Below are positions 2 to 12,380 of a DNA stretch of 21,835 nt, in pieces. A program made the translations under genes and the position numbers. The notes under the pieces were generated by a model. That model saw only the letters and a program-made list of their open reading frames with translations, was not told the DNA's origin and ran no database searches. How positions within the stretch are numbered: the stretch's first letter is position 1; each line of letters begins with the position of its first letter. This DNA comes from a virus. The DNA lies in the IMG/VR virus record IMGVR_UViG_3300006033_000121, positions 1 to 21,835 of that record. One strand, 5' to 3'.

Positions 2-187
2 GGAACCTTTGAGGAACGCAAGACCGAAGCAGTTGAACGCGACCAAAAGCGCCGAATGGCAATGGCAGAAATTGAGCGGCGCAGACCGTCGCCAAAGCAT
101 GTGGCTTTGATGGGGATGATTGCCGCGATGATGCAGGGGCATAACGCAGAGCTAAGGGGCCGGCCGCTTGCGGACGGTCCCGCTTGA
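2..187 (+). CDS. Small phage accessory protein, 5' end missing
   Basis: This frame is open from the first bases of the window and stops at TGA 185-187, so only the last 61 residues are seen. The protein is charged (many Glu and Arg in the first 30 visible residues), followed by a Met-rich stretch (VALMGMIAAMMQG) and the ending NAELRGRPLADGPA. I do not recognise a family. The last 16 codons lie inside the attC-like hairpin at 139-201, as often happens with integron cassette genes. The next two plus-strand genes end in the same way (NAEVTGA, NAELKG). No start or upstream signal is visible because the window begins inside the gene. Confidence 0.55.
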   Translation, partial: GTFEERKTEAVERDQKRRMAMAEIERRRPSPKHVALMGMIAAMMQGHNAELRGRPLADGPA

Positions 188-201
188 GCGCCGGGTTAGG
201 C
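139..201. repeat. attC-like recombination site 1 (63 bases)
   Basis: Outer arms GCATAAC (139-145) and GTTAGGC (195-201) pair with one mismatch and fit the integron core rule RYYYAAC/GTTRRRY. Inner arms AGCTAAG and CTTGAGC pair with one unpaired G (186), nine bases before the right core. The central arms 156-167 and 170-181 pair over 12 positions with one G:T and one mismatch. This is the R''-L''-stem-L'-R' layout of attC (59-base element) sites. The bulge side places the canonical attC orientation on the minus strand, although the neighbouring genes read on the plus strand. A simple terminator or mRNA-protecting hairpin is the alternative, but it would not predict the conserved cores and bulge. 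Confidence 0.6.
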
Positions 202-216
202 GCGGAGGATTGAGAG

Positions 217-417
217 ATGGGAATGCTACCGAGTGACGTTGCACGATGCGCCGGAGTTGGTGACGACGAAGAGGGCTGGCGCGAAGGGTGTGAAGACTGC
301 GCCCGCAGACTGGCTGAATCAACCAGTGACGTATCAGCATGGATGATGCCACCGGCAATCATTGCATTCTGGTGCGAGTTCAGGATAGCGCCTAACGCTG
401 AGGTAACCGGCGCATGA
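217..417 (+). CDS. Small Cys/Trp-rich phage accessory protein (cassette gene)
   Basis: A 66-residue protein with start ATG 217 behind GGAGG eight bases upstream. It contains CAGVGDDEEGWREGCEDCARR and then a Pro/Trp segment (WMMPPAIIAFWCEFRIA). The spaced cysteines (residues 11, 25 and 28) could bind a metal, but I see no complete known finger. The style resembles small early-region proteins of unknown role in proteobacterial phages. It ends NAEVTGA with TGA 415-417, inside the left arm of attC-like site 2, and begins 15 bases after the right core of site 1. It therefore forms a complete cassette-like unit. An overlapping minus-strand frame at 152-358 is also open, but its Arg/Ser/Pro-rich composition and lack of a ribosome site make it less likely. 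Confidence 0.6.
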   Translation: MGMLPSDVARCAGVGDDEEGWREGCEDCARRLAESTSDVSAWMMPPAIIAFWCEFRIAPNAEVTGA

Positions 418-468
418 CAGCAAGCGAAGCGCCGCTGGCGGGCGTCCGTGTTGACCGCCGTGTTAGCA
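390..468. repeat. attC-like recombination site 2 (79 bases)
   Basis: The left core GCCTAAC (390-396) pairs with the right core GTTAGCA (462-468) over five positions. Inner arms GGTAAC (402-407) and GTTGACC (450-456) pair with one bulged G at 453, nine bases before the right core, exactly as in site 1. Spacing from the left core to TAA (7 bases) and from TTGA to the right core (7 bases) is also identical to site 1, while the central stem sequence differs. That is the pattern expected of attC sites: conserved structure with variable centre. A run of six T follows at 470-475, so the hairpin could also work as a plus-strand terminator. Confidence 0.6.
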
Positions 469-518
469 GTTTTTTGAAAAGTCGGCGCTGGTGACACGGC
501 AACCTAGGGGTCGAACGG

Positions 519-537
519 CTTGAATGGTTTGTTATAC
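519..537. repeat. attC-like half-site (right half only)
   Basis: CTTGA (519-523), seven bases, then GTTATAC (531-537) reproduces the right half of sites 1 and 2 with the same spacing. No matching left half is visible in the 50 bases upstream (469-518), which contain no gene. This looks like the remnant of a third site, perhaps left by loss of a cassette, or a simple (attI-like) core. The next gene starts 23 bases downstream behind a good ribosome site. Confidence 0.4.
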
Positions 538-560: not shown

Positions 561-806
561 ATGGATATTGAACACGCACTAGAAATTGCAGATGAGTCCC
601 GCGATGGCGGGTACGACTCAATCAGCGCGATTGCGCTTCATTTTTTGGCTGCCGAGGTTCGAAGTCTATTGCCGGACAGAGCCAGCGCAATGGAATTAGC
701 GATTAAAGCAATCGAAGAATCGCAGCCACCAGAAACAACGCCGTGGGATTGCGTTGATGCAATAAGGCGCAAATTTGCTAAGGCTAACGCAGAACTAAAA
801 GGATAA
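561..806 (+). CDS. Small acidic alpha-helical phage protein, unknown function
   Basis: An 81-residue protein starting at ATG 561 behind GGAGGG six bases upstream. It is mostly predicted helix with even acidic and basic content (ALEIADESRD..., SAMELAIKAIEES..., DAIRRKFAKANAELKG). No signal peptide, membrane segment or known catalytic motif is visible, and I do not recognise the family. It follows an attC-like half-site, and its last codons (GGCTAAC GCAGAACTAA) repeat the left half of the attC-like sites. It therefore looks like the third cassette-type gene of the block. The next gene begins three bases after its stop, so the two are probably cotranscribed and coupled. Confidence 0.65.
   Translation: MDIEHALEIADESRDGGYDSISAIALHFLAAEVRSLLPDRASAMELAIKAIEESQPPETTPWDCVDAIRRKFAKANAELKG
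782..802. repeat. attC-like half-site (left half only) at the end of a gene
   Basis: GGCTAAC (782-788), seven bases, then TAA (796-798) repeats the left half of sites 1 and 2 (TAACGC.GA..TAA). It encodes the same peptide ending (NAELKG beside NAELRG and NAEVTG). No pairing right half with a GTTA core follows within 80 bases. It may be a truncated site or a conserved gene end. Confidence 0.4.
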
Positions 807-2815: not shown

Positions 2816-3066
2816 CACTTGTCCACCTTCTTGTCCAATTTTTCTTCGATCCTGTCGAGCTTATTGAACAGAGCTTTTTGCATGTCGCTCATGTCAGCCT
2901 TTCTTACGTAATCCCCAGCTACCAACACCTCGATGCTGGCTACCTTCTCTGACAACTCCTTGTCATCCGCCTGCAAGTCTTTTACCGAGTCCCATATTGC
3001 TTTTAGAAAGAACCCCATTAAGCCGCCAAATCCGGCCATCGCCCAGTTAATTACATTCTGATCCAT
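2815..3066 (-). CDS. Small membrane protein with coiled coil, putative holin or antiholin
   Basis: An 83-residue protein. Residues 6-25 (INWAMAGFGGLMGFFLKAIW) form one transmembrane helix. The rest is a charged coiled coil (SVKDLQADDKELSEKVASIEVLV, then NKLDRIEEKLDKKVDK), probably cytoplasmic. This one-TM plus coiled-coil shape, next to a lysozyme, is common in phages and usually called putative holin. Because a three-TM holin lies just downstream of the lysozyme, this protein could instead tune the timing as an antiholin. The start follows directly on the upstream TAA and the stop overlaps the lysozyme start. Which of the two membrane proteins forms the lesion cannot be told from sequence. 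Confidence 0.75.
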   Translation of the reverse strand: MDQNVINWAMAGFGGLMGFFLKAIWDSVKDLQADDKELSEKVASIEVLVAGDYVRKADMSDMQKALFNKLDRIEEKLDKKVDK

Positions 3067-3228
3067 TTAATAGTCCTTCGTCGGTATGTTGTACTTCGCG
3101 GAAATGTAGCTGGTGAAACAGTGGTTTTTATCGCCCAGCATGGAAAACAACCAGTCGATCGCGGGACGGGACACCCCTCCCCTGCGAATCGTTCGCCAGA
3201 TGGCGAATATCAAGCAATTACTTCTCAT
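3067..3228 (-). CDS. Small basic protein of 53 residues, unknown function
   Basis: This short frame runs from ATG 3228 to TAA 3067-3069. It begins MRSNCLIFAIWRTIRRGG, continues with VSRPAIDWLFSMLGDKN and ends YNIPTKDY. The start overlaps the upstream stop by four bases (ATGA) and the stop abuts the next ATG with no gap, exactly as for its neighbours. That and the good amino acid make-up argue for a real gene. The amphipathic hydrophobic-then-basic N-terminus suggests membrane association. I recognise the MRSN..FA.WR start as common among small phage lysis-region proteins of unknown role, which is an impression only. Confidence 0.65.
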   Translation of the reverse strand: MRSNCLIFAIWRTIRRGGVSRPAIDWLFSMLGDKNHCFTSYISAKYNIPTKDY

Positions 3229-3386
3229 CTTATCGCCCCCATTCTGAAAAATTCACCGAGCATATGCACTGTTGGTAAGAATACGTACTCGATCATCACC
3301 CACCACATCAAACCGGTAGCCATGATCAAGCCTACCCAAGCGAGGACTAGCTTGATACCCGACAATTTATCGTCAATCGACCTCAC
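3225..3386 (-). CDS. Small single-pass membrane protein of 53 residues
   Basis: This gene starts at GTG 3386, overlapping the stop of the upstream membrane-protein gene by four bases (GTGA), with a G-rich ribosome site (GGGGG) seven bases before. A second GTG one codon upstream is an alternative start. The product starts MRSIDDKLSGIK, has a strong hydrophobic helix (about 11-40, with LVLAWVGLIMATG and MWWVMIEYVF), and ends LGEFFRMGAIR. Its stop overlaps the next start (ATGA). The size and position beside lysis genes fit a holin accessory or pinholin-like protein, but nothing proves this. Confidence 0.65.
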   Translation of the reverse strand: MRSIDDKLSGIKLVLAWVGLIMATGLMWWVMIEYVFLPTVHMLGEFFRMGAIR

Positions 3387-4063
3387 CACTTAGCCCCCGG
3401 CTTGATTGAAAACTTCATCGGTGCACGATAGGCGTTTGTTGTCTGCGGATTCTCCACGAATGGGTCGAAAAGCCAGCCGATGTTGACGTATATAGAACGT
3501 TTCAGAATTGGCACTCTGACAATCTTCATCCACTGGAAATAATCGCCACACTGTGCAGTAAAAGAAAGCCCTGAGTGATCAGGATTGTGCCTGTCAAGCT
3601 GTGGATCGCCGACCGAGATAATGTCGCCAATGCGGTCAAACTTTGCCGACAGCGGGCCATTGACAAGGCCATGCGCGCTATTGCGGATGAGCCATAAGAC
3701 TTGGCCCAGATAGCTCTTGTAAGCGGGGTAGTGGATCGTCTGCCATCCCTTATCCCCGTAGAGCGAGTTGTCCGGCGTCTGAAACCAGCTTAACCAGTGA
3801 GGCAAGCGAGGCTCGACTAAAAGCGCCTGCCCGTTATCACTTAAACCCAATACTGGCTTGGCGAAAATCGGAAGCAGTGGCGCGATCAGGTTAGCGAGTA
3901 CATCAAAAGCGAAGTTAATCAGCAAATAGATAACATATCGACGCTCTGCGTTTTTGAATCCCCTGAAAGCAATCCAGATGCCTAGCGGAACAAGACAGAT
4001 CAGATGCAGCGCCAAAAGCAGCATCCGTGTTGCTAGCATGATAGGGTAATCTAGGAGTTTCAT
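3383..4063 (-). CDS. Conserved-type phage membrane protein, unknown function (DUF7338-like)
   Basis: A 226-residue protein with two long hydrophobic segments near the N-terminus (about 5-33, MLATRMLLLALHLICLVPLG, and 43-70, VIYLLINFAFDVLANL). A soluble C-terminal domain rich in Trp and Tyr follows (LSWFQTPDNSLYGDKGW, then WIRN-like and CGDYFQWMKI). The pattern WFQTPDNSL.GD.GW is one I associate with a widespread phage family of unknown role. The membrane topology is seen in the sequence; the family link is from memory. It overlaps its upstream and downstream genes by four bases on each side and sits between the fibre-like genes and the lysis genes. Confidence 0.7.
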   Translation of the reverse strand: MKLLDYPIMLATRMLLLALHLICLVPLGIWIAFRGFKNAERRYVIYLLINFAFDVLANLIAPLLPIFAKPVLGLSDNGQALLVEPRLPHWLSWFQTPDNSLYGDKGWQTIHYPAYKSYLGQVLWLIRNSAHGLVNGPLSAKFDRIGDIISVGDPQLDRHNPDHSGLSFTAQCGDYFQWMKIVRVPILKRSIYVNIGWLFDPFVENPQTTNAYRAPMKFSIKPGAKW

Positions 4064-5211
4064 CTCACTCGGCGCGCGTCAATCCGCCCATAGGCTGTCG
4101 CCGTGCTCACCGTGAAGTTGGCTACCGCAACTAAATAAACCGTTGTTGTTGCTGCCAAAGAAATTCTTATGGTGGGGATTCCATACCCAATAGCTTGCCC
4201 TCCTGGGACAAATGCTGCCGTGCGGTGGATATAGGCAGCATTCAAATCGAACGTCGCCGATGTAGTGGTAATCCCCCCTGCCAGTGCCGTGATACTTGTC
4301 GTCGCAGCGAAATTAAAAGATACGATTCCTGAAACATCCCAATCACCGGCTGTAAGAGAGACGCTTGTAACGTTGGTATTAACCCCATTGGTTATGCTTA
4401 CTGCTGACGCAAGCGGCACCACCGAACTGATATACTCCCCTATATTTCCTACAGCGGCATTGTCATTGGTGTTGGTGCCCTTGACCGCCGTTCCGCCGGT
4501 TGCGCTGATACTGGTGACAGCGGTCATGCTGGTGATGTCAGCATTGGCTCCCGAGGCCGCTGCACCGGTAATGCCCGAGGAAGCTAATGCGCCCACTTTG
4601 GCCTTCTCGCTATCCAGTTCATTCAATGCGGCCTGCACCGTAGTTGCTGCGATGTTGCCTGCGGGCGTGTTGATCACGCTGGTGGCAGGAAGTCCTGTTG
4701 CGTTAGTAAGCACTGCTGCTGATGGCGTACCTAGGTTAGGCGTAACTAGCGTCGGGCTGTTGGCAAAGACCAACGCTCCAGTTCCTGTCTCATCGCTGAC
4801 TATCGCAGCAAGCTGTGCCGAGGTCATCACGAAGCCAATGGGATTCGTCTTGGTATTCCCGTTCGCATCCTTCTGTTGCCAGCCGCTGCCGTGCGTATAG
4901 TTCAAGCTCTCATCAGTGAGTAGTGCTGCCGTGATGATGGGAACGTTCGTAGCAGCCACATCAAGCTGCACCGTGATGGTATGGCTACCGGCAAAGGTAT
5001 TCTTGATGTTGATCTGATCGACATCCCTGACTGTTGAAGCTGCTGGTGTGGCGCAGATAACCGTAGTAGTAGCAGAGACAATCGCAGTTGCCTGCGTTCC
5101 GCCTATGTACGTGCTGCTGGTCGCATCTGAGTAACAGACAACAACTTGAGCGCCGTTTTGAGCGGTTACAAGTTCGAGGCTATACGTTCCGGCATTCGGT
5201 AGTCTTATCAT
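4060..5211 (-). CDS. Fibre-like virion protein, beta-rich, low-complexity Ala/Thr/Ser
   Basis: A 383-residue protein made almost wholly of Ala, Thr, Ser, Gly, Val and Asn, as in trimeric phage fibres. Residues 1-105 (MIRLPNAGTYSLELVTAQNG, then NTFAGSHTITVQLDV) form a distinct N-terminal beta domain. The middle holds the fibre motif SDETGTGALVFANSPTLVTP with NLGTPSA and TGLP. Near residues 195-207 is AALNELDSEKAKVG, a short helical linker. The C-terminal third (VSLTAGDWDVSGIVSF to GRIDARRVR) looks like a jelly-roll tip. It may be the receptor-binding end of a tail or head fibre. No hydrolase motif is seen. The ribosome site is weak (GGA ten bases upstream). No chaperone or intramolecular cleavage domain was recognised. 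Confidence 0.7.
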   Translation of the reverse strand: MIRLPNAGTYSLELVTAQNGAQVVVCYSDATSSTYIGGTQATAIVSATTTVICATPAASTVRDVDQINIKNTFAGSHTITVQLDVAATNVPIITAALLTDESLNYTHGSGWQQKDANGNTKTNPIGFVMTSAQLAAIVSDETGTGALVFANSPTLVTPNLGTPSAAVLTNATGLPATSVINTPAGNIAATTVQAALNELDSEKAKVGALASSGITGAAASGANADITSMTAVTSISATGGTAVKGTNTNDNAAVGNIGEYISSVVPLASAVSITNGVNTNVTSVSLTAGDWDVSGIVSFNFAATTSITALAGGITTTSATFDLNAAYIHRTAAFVPGGQAIGYGIPTIRISLAATTTVYLVAVANFTVSTATAYGRIDARRVR

Positions 5212-5216
5212 TATGT

Positions 5217-5414
5217 TTATCCGTGTGCTGCTGCAAAAGCGTAGATGTGCACCATGTCATTAGAACCGCCCGCATGACTATGGAGAGTAGTAGTTCCGCC
5301 GTCTGTCAGGTCAGTCCAGTTGGTGCCTGCAAAACTAGCCGAGTCTATAGCGTCAGCAGCAGGAAGCTCCTGAATCTGTCCGCCAATAATAACAAGAGGC
5401 TTTCTGGTTGCCAT
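5217..5414 (-). CDS. Short fibre-associated protein (65 residues), mosaic of two neighbours
   Basis: Residues 1-22 (MATRKPLVIIGGQIQELP) match the start of the next upstream gene (MAVQKPLVIISGQIQQIP). Residues 35-47 (DLTDGGTTTLHSH) match residues 74-86 of the 200-residue fibre protein (DLTDGGASTLHYH). The protein then ends SNDMVHIYAFAAAHG. It therefore combines an N-terminal anchor-like motif with a small His-containing loop found in fibre proteins. The upstream gene ends three bases before, and no good ribosome site is visible, so it may be translated by reinitiation. It could be an adaptor or the debris of module exchange. Confidence 0.6.
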   Translation of the reverse strand: MATRKPLVIIGGQIQELPAADAIDSASFAGTNWTDLTDGGTTTLHSHAGGSNDMVHIYAFAAAHG

Positions 5415-5417
5415 GGC

Positions 5418-5903
5418 TTAGGCTAGAAGAACGCCTTCATGATCTGTACTGATCTCCAGCTCAGTGGTGGAAAGACCTAGGCCTACTTTCACTACATACT
5501 GCCCGCCAGTAGAAGGGGGCGTAGCAGTAATAAGACCGGCAGTGGCCGAGAGGTAGTAGATGGTATTAAAAGCCAGTCCGCCCGTAGTACCAGCTACTGC
5601 ATCCCACTGTGCGGTAGTAGCAGTAAGAATACCATCTGTTTGAATAAGAGCACTGGCAGCGGCGGCCACAGAGACGTCAGAGACTAAGCCTAGTACCTTC
5701 TTGAGACTCACTGAAGTCGCGCCAGCCTTGTCGACTTGAGTAGCGCTGGAAACATAGACTGGAGTACCTTTGACAATAGCACCCGCATTGGCATTGAGCT
5801 TGGATACGACATCAACTTCCGAAGATGCGGCTGAAAGGGTATCGCCAGAAGGGATCTGCTGAATCTGCCCGGAGATGATTACTAGGGGTTTCTGAACGGC
5901 CAT
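5418..5903 (-). CDS. Small structural protein, head/tail fibre type (161 residues)
   Basis: The start ATG 5903 has AAGGA seven bases upstream. The N-terminus MAVQKPLVIISGQIQQIPSGDTL is the anchor-like motif shared with the 65-residue gene downstream. The remainder is a small beta domain (GAIVKGTPVYVSS, KVLGLVSDVSVAAAASALIQTDG, FNTIYYLSATAGLITATPP, YVVKVGLGLSTTELEI). The same domain appears at the C-terminus of the 200-residue gene upstream (GDTVKVTANKFYKA, GSPYFAGTTAAISSIAPTSG, VHRVGYAISSTILLVNI). This type of domain is frequent in phage head or tail fibre proteins. The codon choice is more A/T-rich than in the neighbouring ejection-protein genes. Confidence 0.7.
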   Translation of the reverse strand: MAVQKPLVIISGQIQQIPSGDTLSAASSEVDVVSKLNANAGAIVKGTPVYVSSATQVDKAGATSVSLKKVLGLVSDVSVAAAASALIQTDGILTATTAQWDAVAGTTGGLAFNTIYYLSATAGLITATPPSTGGQYVVKVGLGLSTTELEISTDHEGVLLA

Positions 5904-5914
5904 GATAGTTTCCT

Positions 5915-6517
5915 TTATGAGAGAAGCGTAGGCTCTTCTATGTTTACTAGAAGAATGGTGGAAGAGATTGCGTAGCCTACTCTATGAACATAACCAGAAG
6001 TAGGAGCTATCGAAGAGATTGCAGCGGTAGTTCCTGCGAAATAAGGGCTTCCTGCTGAGAGTCCTGATAGAGTAATATTACCATTAAAGACTGCGGTTGC
6101 TGGGAATGTAGCCGAGACTGTAGCCTTGACGATTCCGGCTATAAGAGCATCTGCTTTTGTAGCTTTATAGAACTTGTTGGCTGTTACTTTGACAGTATCC
6201 CCTACTGTGAGGTCCTCACCAGCCTCTAAAGAGAACTCGGAAACTTCCCTGTCTGCCGCATGGTAATGAAGCGTTGAAGCTCCCCCATCAGTAAGGTCAG
6301 TCGCATTGGCCGCCGTCAGGTGCGTGTAAGTTGCCGTGTCGATGTTCTGTAGATCGCCGTGATTCCGAGTCGCCAAGTCGGTGAGATTCGACCCGGTAAA
6401 GTCGAGCGAACTCCAGAATATCTGTCCTGCTTGCGTGAGCCTTCGCCATAGCAGGTACAGCCAGCCATCTATCGGTTGGCCTGTTTGTGGAGGAGGGGGT
6501 AGAGGGACTTGGGTCAT
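5915..6517 (-). CDS. Fibre protein with N-terminal virion anchor (200 residues), mosaic
   Basis: Residues 1-45 (MTQVPLPPPPQTGQPIDGWL, LLWRRLTQAGQIFW) form a Pro-rich then aromatic virion-attachment start common in short phage tail proteins. Residues 46-86 contain a short fibre segment ending in DLTDGGASTLHYH, which recurs in the 65-residue gene. From about residue 87 the protein is a compact beta domain like that of the 161-residue gene. Base composition changes at the same point: the first part (about 6517-6295) is GC-rich like the ejection genes, the rest clearly more A/T-rich. This suggests a recombination joint. The start ATG overlaps the previous stop (ATGA). Confidence 0.7.
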   Translation of the reverse strand: MTQVPLPPPPQTGQPIDGWLYLLWRRLTQAGQIFWSSLDFTGSNLTDLATRNHGDLQNIDTATYTHLTAANATDLTDGGASTLHYHAADREVSEFSLEAGEDLTVGDTVKVTANKFYKATKADALIAGIVKATVSATFPATAVFNGNITLSGLSAGSPYFAGTTAAISSIAPTSGYVHRVGYAISSTILLVNIEEPTLLS

Positions 6518-8625
6518 TTCCTAACCTGCTCACCGTAAGCCGCACTCGCCACCGGAGCACCTTTGCCAAGTTGCGCAGCGTAACCAATCATCTTGCTTCT
6601 TTGTTCAGGGGGAAGCAGGTCAATCAGCGCTTTCATCGCTTTTGGGTCGCGCATCGCCTTATCCAACTCACGGTACATTTCCTTGTTAACCTTCATCTCG
6701 CCCGCTTGAATGGCCGTGTTTGCGAGCACAATGTACCGATTCAACAGATTCGGAAGGTGGCGAGTGATCGACTGGTCGGATAGAACTTCGCTAACAGCCG
6801 CCTTTGCTTCTGTCGACTTCGCCATTTCCTTGAGCGACTTGTCTCTAGCCATCTCGCCAGCAACGCCGGATGCTTTGGCGAATCGTTCATCGCCAAGCAA
6901 TTCCATCATCGTCTTACCTGTTTTTGTGTACTTCTCGATGAAGTCGACATTTTCTCCGGCGATAGTTTTGATGAATTGCTTGGGGCTGTCTTTTTGCATC
7001 AGGCGAAGTTCGTCCAGTGCCGATAGCGTGTCGCGTTCCGCCAGTGCTTTCGAGTACGGTTCAAGGTACTTGGTCACATAATCTTCGCCAAGTTGTTTGT
7101 CGATCACCTTCTTTATGTCCGTCAACGCAGCGGCGGCGGCCTTCTGAGAGTTCGATCCATCAACAAGATCAGGGATCAGCGTGTTGATCGTCATAGCCCG
7201 AAGTTCGGCTATCTTTACTGGGTCGTCGCCAGCGATTCGGAGTTCCTCTGCAACTTTTGACGCTACGTTTCTCTTTGTTGCATTTAATCCTGTCGACATA
7301 GAGTCGATGGCGCTGCGCACAGGCGCTGCGGTAAAGGCAGCTGGAAGCTCAGAAATCTGCTGGCGAAGAATGTCAGCTTCGGAACGCAGCCCTTGAGCCA
7401 GCCCGCCTAGTTCATCTGCGGCAGCAGAGAACTGGCCAGGGTCGCCTGTGAATCGTGGTTGTCCCTGTTGCACTTGGAACGGAGCGATCGACATTCTTGC
7501 CGCTTCTGGGGTGCCTACAGGAGAAACTGGCATTGAAGTTTGGCGAGGATAATTGCCTTCTGGAAGCGCATTCACTACTTGTCGTTCTGTAGCCCGACTG
7601 CCTTGCGCCAGCACCCCCTGTTGCGCAGCCTCAGTTGTCATGCGACCCTGATTCTGCAATGCTGAGGTATAGCGCCCTTCAATGCTTCGCAGTACCGGCA
7701 GTATGTCGCTCAGCTTCCTTCCAGGCTCGGCGAGTTTGTTGAGAATGTCTCGTTCAACTGGCTTCAAATCCAACGCGGTCAATTTACCGTAAAGGTCACG
7801 GGCAAGAGCCGCACTTTCAGCGGAACCGCCTTGCGCCATTTCCTCCATGACTTGACCCTGTGCAGCGGCTTGCCTTTCAGCCTGCGATAGGTAAGCGCGG
7901 GCAGCGGCCATCGGGTCATCAGCGGCCTGTATTCCTTCCGTCGATCGCATCAGTTTGTCCAGGACGGCAACGCCTTCAGCGTCAGGCATTCCAGCGAGCG
8001 CCTGCGCTGTCCTTACATCCCCAGCCTCACCAAGCATCCGTGATGCGGCAACTTGGTTATCCAATCCAATAATAGCCTTGGACACATTTGCCGCTTTGTC
8101 AGCACCACCGTAATATCGGACAGACTTATCTCCGCCCACCAACTCACGAAGCCGTTGCACGTTGTTGCCAACTGATCCGGCAATCCTTGGGATGGCTTTC
8201 CCGATCAAAGCACCGCCAGCACCAAACATGCCTTCAGTGGTGGCAGACGCTGCTCTGTGGCCTGTCGGGTCGTAAGCGAACCCAAGAGCCGCAGAAGCCG
8301 CAGCAGCAGGGAGAACGGCGGTTCCGGCCAAAGCAGCGGGGGCGTACTTGGCGATCTCGCCAACCATCGCGCCTATGGGTGCTTCTTCGCCCGCTACGTT
8401 AGCGGCACGAACAGCGTCTTGATCGACATCTCCACCGAACAGTCCCTTGACCCCCTGATACCCTTTGTGCAACGCACCGCCAGCGCCGACGAGTTGGCGT
8501 TGCGCCCACGGCATTTCATTGAGGACTTCGCGCTGATAGTCTTCCTGAGTCTTTTGCTTTGGGATCAAGTCATCAAACGCACCGCTTGATGTCCTGCTTG
8601 GAATTAGATCGTCAAAAGCGCCCAT
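6514..8625 (-). CDS. Large internal virion / DNA ejection protein with tandem FDDLIP motif
   Basis: A 703-residue protein. The N-terminus repeats GAFDDLIP twice (residues 2-9 and 15-22), a short linear motif I associate with the N-termini of phage internal proteins. Residues about 85-150 are Gly/Ala-rich and hydrophobic (MVGEIAKYAPAALAG, AAAASAALGFAYDP, GAGGALIGKAIPRIAG), which could insert into the host membrane. The remainder is long alpha-helix with many Ala, Glu and Lys. Position after two other internal-type genes and before fibre genes, plus size, fit a gp16/gp20-like ejection protein of P22-type phages, which leave the capsid with the DNA and help it cross the envelope. No lytic transglycosylase motif is seen. 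The start lies one base after the previous stop. Confidence 0.7.
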   Translation of the reverse strand: MGAFDDLIPSRTSSGAFDDLIPKQKTQEDYQREVLNEMPWAQRQLVGAGGALHKGYQGVKGLFGGDVDQDAVRAANVAGEEAPIGAMVGEIAKYAPAALAGTAVLPAAAASAALGFAYDPTGHRAASATTEGMFGAGGALIGKAIPRIAGSVGNNVQRLRELVGGDKSVRYYGGADKAANVSKAIIGLDNQVAASRMLGEAGDVRTAQALAGMPDAEGVAVLDKLMRSTEGIQAADDPMAAARAYLSQAERQAAAQGQVMEEMAQGGSAESAALARDLYGKLTALDLKPVERDILNKLAEPGRKLSDILPVLRSIEGRYTSALQNQGRMTTEAAQQGVLAQGSRATERQVVNALPEGNYPRQTSMPVSPVGTPEAARMSIAPFQVQQGQPRFTGDPGQFSAAADELGGLAQGLRSEADILRQQISELPAAFTAAPVRSAIDSMSTGLNATKRNVASKVAEELRIAGDDPVKIAELRAMTINTLIPDLVDGSNSQKAAAAALTDIKKVIDKQLGEDYVTKYLEPYSKALAERDTLSALDELRLMQKDSPKQFIKTIAGENVDFIEKYTKTGKTMMELLGDERFAKASGVAGEMARDKSLKEMAKSTEAKAAVSEVLSDQSITRHLPNLLNRYIVLANTAIQAGEMKVNKEMYRELDKAMRDPKAMKALIDLLPPEQRSKMIGYAAQLGKGAPVASAAYGEQVRK

Positions 8626-8626
8626 G

Positions 8627-9901
8627 TTATCGCCCCATCTTTTCTTGAAGTCGCTTCATTACCGCGTCCCTTGGTGCGCCCGAAGCAATTGCCGCCTGCG
8701 CTTCTTGCATCAGCATGGCTTGCTGTTCTGCACCAGACTTAGCGGGTGCGGCATTGCCTGAAAACCCCTTCGGTGGATTGTCTTTCAAATCCTGCTTCAA
8801 TCGTTGCGTGGACATTTTGACGTCCCACAGCATCCGTTCAATCTGTTCTGGCGATTGCGCTTGATCGAGCGAACCTTGAACGGATTGTAGGAACTCAAGT
8901 TCGCGTTCAGTGATATTCCCCAGCGCCCCCCCAGTAGGCGATTCACGACGCATCTTGTTCAGTTCGTCAAATCCGATGTTGGCTTTGATTCTGCTCAAAT
9001 CGCCGCGCAAGTCTCTTGCACTGGTGCCGCCAAAGTTTTCAAGAACCTGGCCTGGCAATCCGGTGGCAAAGAACCCAAGTTTTGATCCTTGCGACTTATA
9101 TTTCCCTTCACCAAGAATCTTGTCGATGTTGTCGTCCATTGTGTCGGCTTGCTTGATAGAGTTTGACCACGCGCTTTGTTCTTTATTCTGCGCCCCCTCG
9201 AGCTTCTCGACTCGCTCGTATTCAGTAGTCCCAGGAATCCTCGCGGACAACTGCGCACCCTCGGCTTCGGCAATCACTTTAGCCCTAGCCTTATCAAGTT
9301 CAGATGTAGGTTTTGCTTGCATTTGAGCAAGTTCAACGCGCTGCTTCTGAATCCCCAAATCCTCTTTCATCCTCGTCCGTTCAGCGCCGGTATCTCTTCC
9401 CATGTCAATAATTCGGCCATCAGCCATGACAGCGCGAGTTGCATCACCTTTCAGCCGATACCCTTTCCCCATGCCGCCGTATTCGATGGGCATAGAGTAA
9501 TCGGGCGCAGGGCCACCAAGTCGTGACTGGCTTGGTCGTCCATACTGATCTTCTGGCGCGAAAGTGCGTCCGGTACTGTTATTGCGGATCATGTTCAACG
9601 GGGCCTGCTCGACTACACCAGCACCGCCGTAACCGGGCGCACGCGGCATTTGCGGTTCACCTCCCATCGGCGTCCTATTGAATCCGGACGTCGTCATCGT
9701 CGATTGCGACAGTAGTTCGTTGATTTGGTCACGACTTGCGCCAGATTTCATCAGGTCACTGAGCATGCCTTGCTGCGGAATATATTGCTGCTGAGTGTCA
9801 AACTGCACTCCAGGTTCGTTGTTGTCCTGTTGCATGGCGAGCAGTTCAGCGAGCCGCTTCTGGCGTTCCTGTTCGTATTTTTGGTCAATGTAGTATTCCA
9901 T
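8627..9901 (-). CDS. Internal virion protein, Gln-rich, probable ejection protein
   Basis: I choose ATG 9901 (MEYYIDQKYEQERQK), two bases after the preceding stop with AGGTGGGG upstream, giving 424 residues; an earlier in-frame start would overlap the upstream gene. Residues 1-60 are Gln-rich and helical, then a Gly/Pro-rich linker (about 70-150), then a long helical part (ERTRMKEDLGIQKQRVELAQ, IARIPGTTEYERVEK-like, SVQGSLDQAQSPEQIERMLWD). The C-terminus ends in a short helix (QAAIASGAPRDAVMKRLQEKMG). This resembles phage injection proteins by composition and position only; no enzyme motif is present. It sits between two other proteins of the same class. Confidence 0.6.
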   Translation of the reverse strand: MEYYIDQKYEQERQKRLAELLAMQQDNNEPGVQFDTQQQYIPQQGMLSDLMKSGASRDQINELLSQSTMTTSGFNRTPMGGEPQMPRAPGYGGAGVVEQAPLNMIRNNSTGRTFAPEDQYGRPSQSRLGGPAPDYSMPIEYGGMGKGYRLKGDATRAVMADGRIIDMGRDTGAERTRMKEDLGIQKQRVELAQMQAKPTSELDKARAKVIAEAEGAQLSARIPGTTEYERVEKLEGAQNKEQSAWSNSIKQADTMDDNIDKILGEGKYKSQGSKLGFFATGLPGQVLENFGGTSARDLRGDLSRIKANIGFDELNKMRRESPTGGALGNITERELEFLQSVQGSLDQAQSPEQIERMLWDVKMSTQRLKQDLKDNPPKGFSGNAAPAKSGAEQQAMLMQEAQAAIASGAPRDAVMKRLQEKMGR

Positions 9902-9903
9902 GA

Positions 9904-10689
9904 TTAACCCCACCTCATTCCGCTAATCGACCCGGAAGAATAGTTCTGGCTTGGCGACGGTGCCTGCTTAATCCAAGTATTTGCCCATGCGTTTCGATTG
10001 TCGCCAGTAATTTTTTGATTCACATTTGTGGCATCATTTGCCTGTCCAACCAAGTCTTTCAACAACCCACCACGCTGATTCCATGCGTTCGACTCGGCGG
10101 CGTAGCGGCTTGTATTCGCGTTCTTGTCACCAAGCCATGATTGCGAGTAGTTGCCAAGCAAGTTACCGAGCCGCCCTGCCTGCGCGTCATATTCCTGCGA
10201 ACCCATATCCTGCCCGTACTTGGTCAGTTCCATGAGACGGTTGCCGGAATTGAGCATCCCTTTCGCCCCAAGTTGGCGATTTATGGCCTCTTCACCTTGT
10301 TTGACGCGGAACTTGTAGGCCGCCGATTGGTTGATGGAATCGGGGTTGTCTAGCAGGCTCCGTAGGCGTGTCTCTGCGTCACCTAGACCGGCCTCGAAAC
10401 GGTTGCTTTGAGATGCGACAGGCGCTGGAGCATCAAGATACCCCGTCATTCTGTTCCCGAAGTCAGTAGCCTGTCCCTGAATCCTGGAAGCATTCAATGT
10501 TGCGCTCGGGTCTTCAGTCGCCATCCTATCGACGAAATCGGACAACTGTCCTTCTCGCATCGAAGAAGACGCTTTATTCCTTTTCCACGCGTCATACCCG
10601 CTGTAGGACGCGTTTGTATCCCCCGTGTCTTTCTGCATTTGGCCCCAGTCAGCGGGTAAGCTAGGTTCTGTCTGCCACCAATATCCCAT
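9904..10689 (-). CDS. Small internal virion / DNA transfer protein (gp7-like)
   Basis: A 261-residue protein from ATG 10689 with GGAG seven bases upstream. The N-terminus is aromatic (MGYWWQTEPSLPADWGQMQK). Residues 100-185 hold a helical segment I recognise as recurrent in phage DNA-transfer proteins (AAYKFRVKQGEEAINRQLGA, GMLNSGNRLMELTKYGQ, EYDAQAGRLGNLLG). The C-terminal part is Asn/Ser/Trp-rich and probably extended (NAWANTWIKQAP, GSISGMRWG). By order it is the first of three ejection-type genes after the stabilisation genes, matching the place of P22 gp7-like proteins. The family link rests on motif impression and synteny. Confidence 0.6.
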   Translation of the reverse strand: MGYWWQTEPSLPADWGQMQKDTGDTNASYSGYDAWKRNKASSSMREGQLSDFVDRMATEDPSATLNASRIQGQATDFGNRMTGYLDAPAPVASQSNRFEAGLGDAETRLRSLLDNPDSINQSAAYKFRVKQGEEAINRQLGAKGMLNSGNRLMELTKYGQDMGSQEYDAQAGRLGNLLGNYSQSWLGDKNANTSRYAAESNAWNQRGGLLKDLVGQANDATNVNQKITGDNRNAWANTWIKQAPSPSQNYSSGSISGMRWG

Positions 10690-10691
10690 GA

Positions 10692-12380
10692 TTACGCTCC
10701 TTCAATCTCAATGGCCTCAAGCCGCAATAGTGCGTTCTTGAGATGTAAAATTTCAAATGATCTACGGCGGAAATTCCCTAACCGACGAATCTTCGACCGC
10801 GTTGCAGATAGATCAACAGGGCGGAATACTGAATTCGTTGCGTAATCGTCATCAGAATACCTGATTACCGCCGTGCTGGACACCTTGTCGCCTATCAATT
10901 CAGCCGATGCCATCGTCTTATACTTAGTGCTTCCATCGTCCATCTTCGGCGTTCTGATTCGCGCAGCAATGGCCCCGATAGCATCAATATAGACAGACTG
11001 GCTGAATTCATATAGCGCCCCACTTGTCGCGTGTTGCATATACTGCTTCCCGTTGGCCGAAGTCGAAGCGATGACCGGGAAGTACGCTTCTGTGTGCTTA
11101 ACTGAAGTGCCAGACCCGCTGAATGCAGCTCCTGTTGCCTGTAGCTGGAACGTATCGGTCGTGACATCCGTAACCACATGCCAGCCGTTGAAACTGGCGT
11201 TTGTAGCGGCGATCAGGGTGATTTCGCCATCCGAGTACCCATGAGCGGAGGAAGTCACTACACCGGCTGCTGTGACCGCCGTGACAGTCTTGGTAACTCC
11301 CGACGAGGCGAGGTAAGTGAAGAATGACCACAGCGAAGTCGTAAAGTCATAGACGAGGGTAACGCCAGCGGTTACAAGCGTCAGGCCGTACAGCAAGTGC
11401 GAACCGACATTGGCCGACCATGAATAGACGGTCGCCAGCGAATCGGCGTTCAGAATCTTGTCGATTTGGGGAGTGGAAATTTTCTCAGGTGCCATTCCTT
11501 GAAGCCGGAAGATGCCGCGTCCGAACCCGTCCTTGGTTTGCCCCATCCAGACGATAGTGCCAGCCATCTCTTTGACCGAAGCATCAGAAGCACATCCGAC
11601 CTTGAACGCGGCATTCTGGACAGGCGCGAGAATTGATCCTGTCGCATTCGCAGCGTCATAGAAAAACTCCGTGCTGTATTGCTTGAAAGCGGCCAGGTAG
11701 TTGTTGTGCTTGGCAAGATAGACGCCCTGATCCGGTTCGATCTGCGTCCCGATGAATTCCAGCGCGGCCCATGATGCAGCATTCTCAGTGGCCGATTGAT
11801 TGATGTCTCCAGCAGGCGTCATCACGAAGAACTTGCCATCGAGGAAAGCGCACCCCCGCGTGGTGTTGCTCGGATAGTCGGCATCCGTGATCTGCGTTAC
11901 CGTGTAGCGGTTCGCAGTGTTGGTGGCATAGGTTGATGCAACGCCATCTTCCAACTGCGCCCAGGCCACATCCACTGCGTCGGCAGATGTCGCAATTTTG
12001 ATCCCGAATGTTACCGTACCGCTTGCTGTCAGAGTCGTATCGTAACGCGCCCATATGCTGGTCGTGGTTTCGACTGAGTACGTCGTTCCGTCCACCGTGA
12101 TGCTGATCGCCCCCGTTCCAGTAACGCGCTTGATGTAGATTGAAAATGTCCGGTTCAGCGTTCCGGTCAAGGCGATGCTTTGCAGCATGGTCGCGTTCGC
12201 CGCGCCTGCGGTGAGCGTGAATGCTTCCGTTCCAGAGTTCGGGTCTGTTTGTGATGCCGTCAGGGTGATGTTTGTCTTGACCCACGCGGCATTGCTGAAC
12301 AATTGGCTATAGAGCGCCTGATTCGCGTTCTGTACCATGTAGTAACCGACCGTCTTGGTCTTTAGGAATAGTTGGCTCAT
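10692..12380 (-). CDS. gp10-like packaged-DNA stabilisation (tail hub) protein body with extra beta modules
   Basis: A 562-residue protein. From about residue 163 it reads as a P22 gp10-type protein that plugs the portal after packaging: VTQITDADYPS, a FLDGKFFVMTPAGDI segment, EFFYDAANATG, IVWMGQTKDGFGRGIF, VYSWSANVGSHLLYGLTLV, and a C-terminus with KMDDGSTKYKTMASAELIGD and RRLGNFRRRSFEI. Two inserted beta modules are visible. Residues about 20-158 resemble a carbohydrate-binding-like jelly roll (ALYSQLFSNAAWVKTNITLT to VDVAWAQLEDG). Residues about 363-428 resemble the phage 'AHGYSDGE' Ig-like module. The usual gp10 N-terminus (RPGLS region) is missing here and is found instead on the two genes upstream. 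The start overlaps the previous stop by ATGA. Confidence 0.65.
   Translation of the reverse strand: MSQLFLKTKTVGYYMVQNANQALYSQLFSNAAWVKTNITLTASQTDPNSGTEAFTLTAGAANATMLQSIALTGTLNRTFSIYIKRVTGTGAISITVDGTTYSVETTTSIWARYDTTLTASGTVTFGIKIATSADAVDVAWAQLEDGVASTYATNTANRYTVTQITDADYPSNTTRGCAFLDGKFFVMTPAGDINQSATENAASWAALEFIGTQIEPDQGVYLAKHNNYLAAFKQYSTEFFYDAANATGSILAPVQNAAFKVGCASDASVKEMAGTIVWMGQTKDGFGRGIFRLQGMAPEKISTPQIDKILNADSLATVYSWSANVGSHLLYGLTLVTAGVTLVYDFTTSLWSFFTYLASSGVTKTVTAVTAAGVVTSSAHGYSDGEITLIAATNASFNGWHVVTDVTTDTFQLQATGAAFSGSGTSVKHTEAYFPVIASTSANGKQYMQHATSGALYEFSQSVYIDAIGAIAARIRTPKMDDGSTKYKTMASAELIGDKVSSTAVIRYSDDDYATNSVFRPVDLSATRSKIRRLGNFRRRSFEILHLKNALLRLEAIEIEGA

Follow-up and report, generated by a model that had tools for sequence, protein, structure and literature searches.

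attC sites of opposite polarity to their genes in a phage early region, and the integron integrases of related viral contigs

Background

Integrons and attC arrays in phages are already published: integrons or their components have been found in 21 phages, and IntI1 uses several of the phage attC sites (Qi et al. 2023, PMC9892861). The integrase-bearing cases of that study are bacterial-type integrons (Vibrio, Shewanella, class 1), and two arrays of virulent phages were termed typical, with cassettes in the canonical orientation. Here we analyse a 21,835-nucleotide stretch of viral DNA (the window; IMG/VR record IMGVR_UViG_3300006033_000121), in whose early region a sequence-only reading had recognised two attC-like hairpins around a 66-codon gene. 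Such a store of exchangeable genes was judged unusual for a phage, which it remains, though in view of Qi et al. (2023, PMC9892861) it is not unprecedented.

Results

Both hairpins (Table 1) can be read in the sequence with the positions, cores, arms and bulged G first described for them. The ..AAC / GTT.. cores and the inner arms pair, an extrahelical base is present in one arm, as the attC criterion demands, and the bulged G lies exactly 9 bases ahead of each right core. The covariance-model attC search that had been proposed as a check was run with a model (R1) built from 22 aligned bacterial sites, none from a phage; these come from arrays adjoining intI in bacterial integron loci (IntI1/Shewanella IntI alignment), with the caveat that they were chosen by the analysis's own scanner. 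On the 21.8-kb window the two hairpins were the sole matches, both on the minus strand only, and their scores stand far above background (next best 7 bits, none above 7.2), with E-values that bear out the identity claimed for them. Two phages already known to have such sites also gave matches to the model, TJE1 (on the gene strand) and Shewanella M16-3. No match was returned by an Rfam gathering search, nor by a near DNA search of GenBank phages.

Folded as DNA with cores paired, the plus strands of attC1 and attC2 reach -15.7 and -20.1 kcal/mol and the minus strands, more weakly, -11.1 and -13.9 kcal/mol; the better-folding strand is the bottom one in the attC sense (here plus) at both window sites and at 34 of 42 phage sites. 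Relative to shuffled sequences the hairpin energies are unexceptional (z -1.0 for attC1, -1.3 for attC2), and plain hairpin energy was dropped as evidence for attC, a z of about -1 being uninformative. Among 22 phage sites fitted to the model, two-sided changes occur in 15 of 18 pairs, a level reached by 0 of 500 shuffles, with the reservation that the 22-site alignment is biased in favour of the structure. The two segments are attC sites on the grounds of sequence, structure, spacing, extrahelical base and model score; that they recombine is an inference.

The gene layout first suggested a canonical (plus) attC polarity. This was rejected because the extra base, which lies in the left arm of bacterial attC, lies in the right arm of the window sites as read on the plus strand, and because the model scores only the minus strand. 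The sequence-only reading had missed that the attC sites and the 66-codon ORF have opposite polarities.

Table 1. Features at the left end of the window. A slash within a core marks the expected crossover; cores in brackets are as read on the plus strand.
Feature	Position	Strand	Details
43-aa ORF	56-187	+	stops inside attC1; at contig end
attC1	139-201	-	model R1 55.3 bits, E 1.7e-11; extrahelical G at +186
attC1 R'	139-145	-	5'-G/TTATGC-3' (GCATAAC); expected crossover between 144 and 145
attC1 R''	195-201	-	GCCTAAC (GTTAGGC)
Exchangeable unit, attC1 + 66-aa ORF	142-396	+	left core to left core; L002 match
66-aa cassette ORF	217-417	+	function unknown; 3' end extends into attC2
attC2	390-468	-	model R1 43.6 bits, E 1.1e-8; extrahelical G at +453
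attC2 R'	390-396	-	G/TTAGGC (GCCTAAC); expected crossover between 395 and 396
attC2 R''	462-468	-	TGCTAAC (GTTAGCA)
Collapsed third attC	510-537	-	left core GTCGAAC, right half GGCTTGAATGGTTTGTTATAC; read from sequence
81-aa ORF	561-806	+	ends ..NAELKG
Half attC	782-798	-	left core and arm GGCTAACGCAGAACTAA; at end of 81-aa ORF

The protein of the 66-aa ORF has 22 relatives on viral contigs (47-92% amino acid identity), and none was found in genome_contigs, a species-level genome collection, or in GenBank phages. The end of the 43-aa ORF (..NAELRG..) resembles other cassette ORFs of the window, and this ORF is probably the last part of the cassette gene before it; the 81-aa ORF, for which a search of viral contigs returned no relatives, is probably a former cassette gene. 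Two further attC remnants, the collapsed third site and the half site, had escaped the sequence-only reading. The former scores under the model threshold, and its flank (478-520) matches cassette ends in other phages, while the latter is identical to attC1 in 13 of 14 bases (repeat D2). A 26-nt direct repeat (96% identical) is also present at 1126-1151 and 1336-1361. The 21.8-kb fragment has no TIGR02249 match for IntI and carries the phage attI pattern at chance level only; the complete-integron criteria of intI and attI are not met in the window. The CALIN criterion is met, with two attC 188 bases apart and no IntI nearby, on a record that is itself a fragment. The criterion of a canonical gene cassette, an ORF on the attC strand, is not, the ORF being plus and attC minus, and the same holds in relatives.

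Comparison with related contigs places gene turnover at the cores. The segment comprising attC1 and the 66-aa ORF is 83.8% identical to 9929-10184 of contig L002, and the homology stops at the next core (396, GCCTAAC), beyond which the two diverge. As far as sequence comparison can tell, the gene between the hairpins thus behaves as the exchangeable cassette it had been proposed to be, and this is supported further by L003, where the 66-aa ORF is followed by a different attC and has none just before it. The attC1 segment 142-199 is 98% identical to 8649-8706 of an IntI-bearing contig (L204) with a different gene after it, and 10204-10525 of L002 matches 9293-9614 of L209 in a stretch that ends exactly at the core in both. 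The unit requires one correction: the attC sites point minus, and what is exchangeable is attC then gene, left core to left core. L002 and L003, the closest two relatives by the 66-aa ORF, have arrays of small plus-strand ORFs with attC between them; L002 carries 11 attC, L003 4 and L004 3, all minus. Among relatives identified by terminase (L024-L103), attC sites occur only in L056 and L027, on the strand opposite to the adjoining small ORFs. The searches yielded no close relative of the window phage at genome length. To the right of the 11-site array of L002, a truncated IntI-like reading frame occupies 11551-11769.

These observations bear on whether the hairpins are merely signals that separate early genes, either ordinary terminators of transcription or signals for RNA processing. 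They do have small genes of one direction on either side and fold in the sense of the coding strand, as such signals might, but the attC model E-values, the conservation of cores, bulge and polarity across phages, and the presence of IntI and an attI-like block beside such sites in relatives all speak against it. Genes change at the core and the hairpins do not drift as terminators would, the outcome by which the sequence-only reading had proposed to judge the matter. The terminator reading is strongly disfavoured, and we give it almost no credence.

The opposition between ORF and attC extends well beyond the window. In a first set of phage arrays, plus-strand ORFs match 53 PHROG and 9 Pfam families and minus-strand ORFs only 1 and 0; in a second set the PHROG families number 30 against 5. 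Judged by the longest ORF, the first viral set has 31 inverted intervals among 35 and the second 27 among 41 (14 are not), whereas bacterial arrays have the longest ORF on the attC strand in 23 of 26 cases and inverted in 3 of 26. The longest-ORF test is noisy in GC-rich arrays, which affects the second viral set, and the homology-based tests are preferred; some of that noise may represent cassettes in canonical orientation. From the PHROG and Pfam strand counts, together with the longest-ORF comparison with bacteria, it follows that the cassette ORFs of these phages are mostly inverted with respect to attC and share the strand of intI.

A phage-clade IntI is encoded on more than 20 IMG/VR viral contigs; a conserved attI-like block lies shortly upstream of it, and an attC array usually accompanies it. 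Immediately to the right of the L003 array lies a gene for a complete IntI, which scores 450 bits (cut-off 265). A further nine viral contigs (L202-L210) have full-length IntI that score 450-482 bits at 63-79% identity, all above the curated cut-off. These relatives keep the six catalytic residues (R K H R H Y) and the IntI-specific region, and the L003 protein matches the solved IntI4 (2a3v) at 276 bits. The ten phage IntI form a clade (support 99/98) with one non-viral member, a bacterial-genome sequence whose surroundings look like a prophage. No IntI of this clade was found in GenBank phages, where the best match was 54% identical and of class 1. A separate IntI-like protein, 45.5% identical to that of L003, is encoded at 4686-5645 of KX853513.1 (virus Rctr41k, from a DAMO enrichment culture).

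In most of the nine contigs attC arrays, all minus, lie to the left of intI; L203 and L206 yielded none. The conserved block upstream of intI, YAACTTAAATTCNNCGACA, has variable sequence to its left and fits an attI-like site. A pattern scan for it returned 43 contigs, and in 22 of 42 newly cut loci, several of these on contigs already met above, an IntI lies 114-167 bases beyond the block, many of these loci having further attC arrays. Terminase, structural or tail genes are present in L206, L208 and L204. In L205 the array and intI are flanked by a terminase-like gene on one side and a portal gene on the other, and this integron (3058-10683) is not in an early region. Cassette cargo includes DNA methyltransferases (Dam and others), Mom, PAPS reductase and a Lar-like protein; among the viral cassette ORFs of alignment A4, one from a cassette region has a PHROG family of reverse transcriptases as a match (E 7e-52). 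The motif AAAGTCGGCGCTGGYGASACGGC, which reads KVGAGETA in frame, is scattered inside genes as well as in the gaps separating them and faces either way. These phage loci contain 26 copies in 410 kb, other viral loci 2 in 1.02 Mb, and the loci of bacterial IntI 1 in 1.35 Mb. The motif is found at 477-500 of the window and in L003, L204, L206, L207, L208, L261, L263, L270, L288, L292 and L296.

The sequence-only reading saw no integrase in the window, and none is there; its corollary, that a host or distant enzyme would have to act, is not needed, since related phage contigs come with an IntI gene of their own. It remains conceivable that a host (bacterial) IntI acts on the sites and that phages are vehicles for bacterial cassettes, given the high frequency of IntI among bacterial genomes of the class sampled (137 of 369) and given that phage-borne attC are usable by IntI1 (Qi et al. 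2023, PMC9892861). We nevertheless find this doubtful in the face of the phage contigs' own IntI, the inversion of cassette ORFs, unlike bacterial arrays, and the occurrence of the 66-aa gene on 22 viral contigs but not in the species-level genome collection.

Discussion

Our results make it quite probable that an integron cassette array composed of units exchangeable by IntI survives as a remnant in the window, where the early region of this phage, which has a portal of the P22 type, ends. The recombinogenic (bottom) strand of both attC would be the plus strand, the coding strand of the early genes; IntI would bind this strand in its folded form and exchange would take place at the left cores (TAA/C), so that units of attC then gene could be gained, lost or swapped. 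The sole sign of IntI recombination at G/TT is indirect, namely homology ending at the core. The acting enzyme is likewise inferred: it would most likely be the phage-encoded IntI of related contigs, supplied in trans when phages co-infect a cell or a lysogen is superinfected, although a host IntI is possible. Since the cassette ORFs run against the attC polarity and face intI, their transcription would start at the phage early promoter and not at one belonging to the integron, with intI read last, after the array; this read-through is again inferred.

Counting against an active array are the lack of IntI and attI on the fragment and the decay of two further sites, and the array may be inactive here. 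For these reasons the array of the window phage is either served in trans or becoming a relic. An extreme form of the latter holds that a piece of an integron array was once captured by the phage lineage and that no attC recombination has occurred since. Besides the missing IntI and attI and the decayed sites, it could draw on L002, which retains only an IntI remnant. Such long-dead relics would not, on the other hand, readily account for an attC1 98% identical, core to core, to the attC of an IntI-bearing contig with different genes after it, or for the retention of cores, bulges and pairing in attC1 and attC2, and we regard this explanation as unlikely, though not to be dismissed. Returning to exchange mediated by phage IntI, we lean, with some reserve, towards a phage-owned integron system, having its own IntI clade, its attI, a pool of ORF-inverted cassettes and phage transcription running from array to intI, through which IntI-less phages, the window phage among them, may also exchange anti-restriction and other genes by site-specific recombination.

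A gene-swapping system familiar chiefly from bacteria thus appears to be run by some phages. The genomes of phages are mosaic, and part of this mosaicism would have a defined mechanism in the site-specific exchange of cassettes. The cargo (Dam, Mom, other methyltransferases, the Lar-like protein) suits evasion of host restriction, a benefit that is inferred. The inverted cassettes breach the usual rule that genes follow attC polarity and offer a natural test of why the rule exists. A phage cassette pool could also supply bacterial integrons, which bears on the origin of cassettes. We found no description of the phage IntI clade, its attI or inverted cassettes in the open-access literature, subscription papers and preprints being outside the scope of the search.

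In relation to known systems, the loci described here resemble the phages of Qi et al. (2023, PMC9892861) in several respects: integrase-less attC clusters occur there in virulent phages and IntI in some temperate ones, DNA methyltransferases are among the cargo, and the attC of those phages are usable by IntI1. They differ in that the present IntI form a separate clade, with a clade-conserved attI-like block and inverted ORFs. With chromosomal and mobile bacterial integrons they share the IntI family (TIGR02249), attC anatomy, polarity divergent from intI and an attI-like site adjoining intI. The IntI of L003 is homologous along nearly its whole length to IntI4 (2a3v), which is a bacterial integron integrase, whereas the phage IntI are a clade of their own among the sequences compared. 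Unlike those of chromosomal and mobile bacterial integrons, the phage cassette ORFs face intI, and the arrays stand amid phage genes and carry phage-type cargo.
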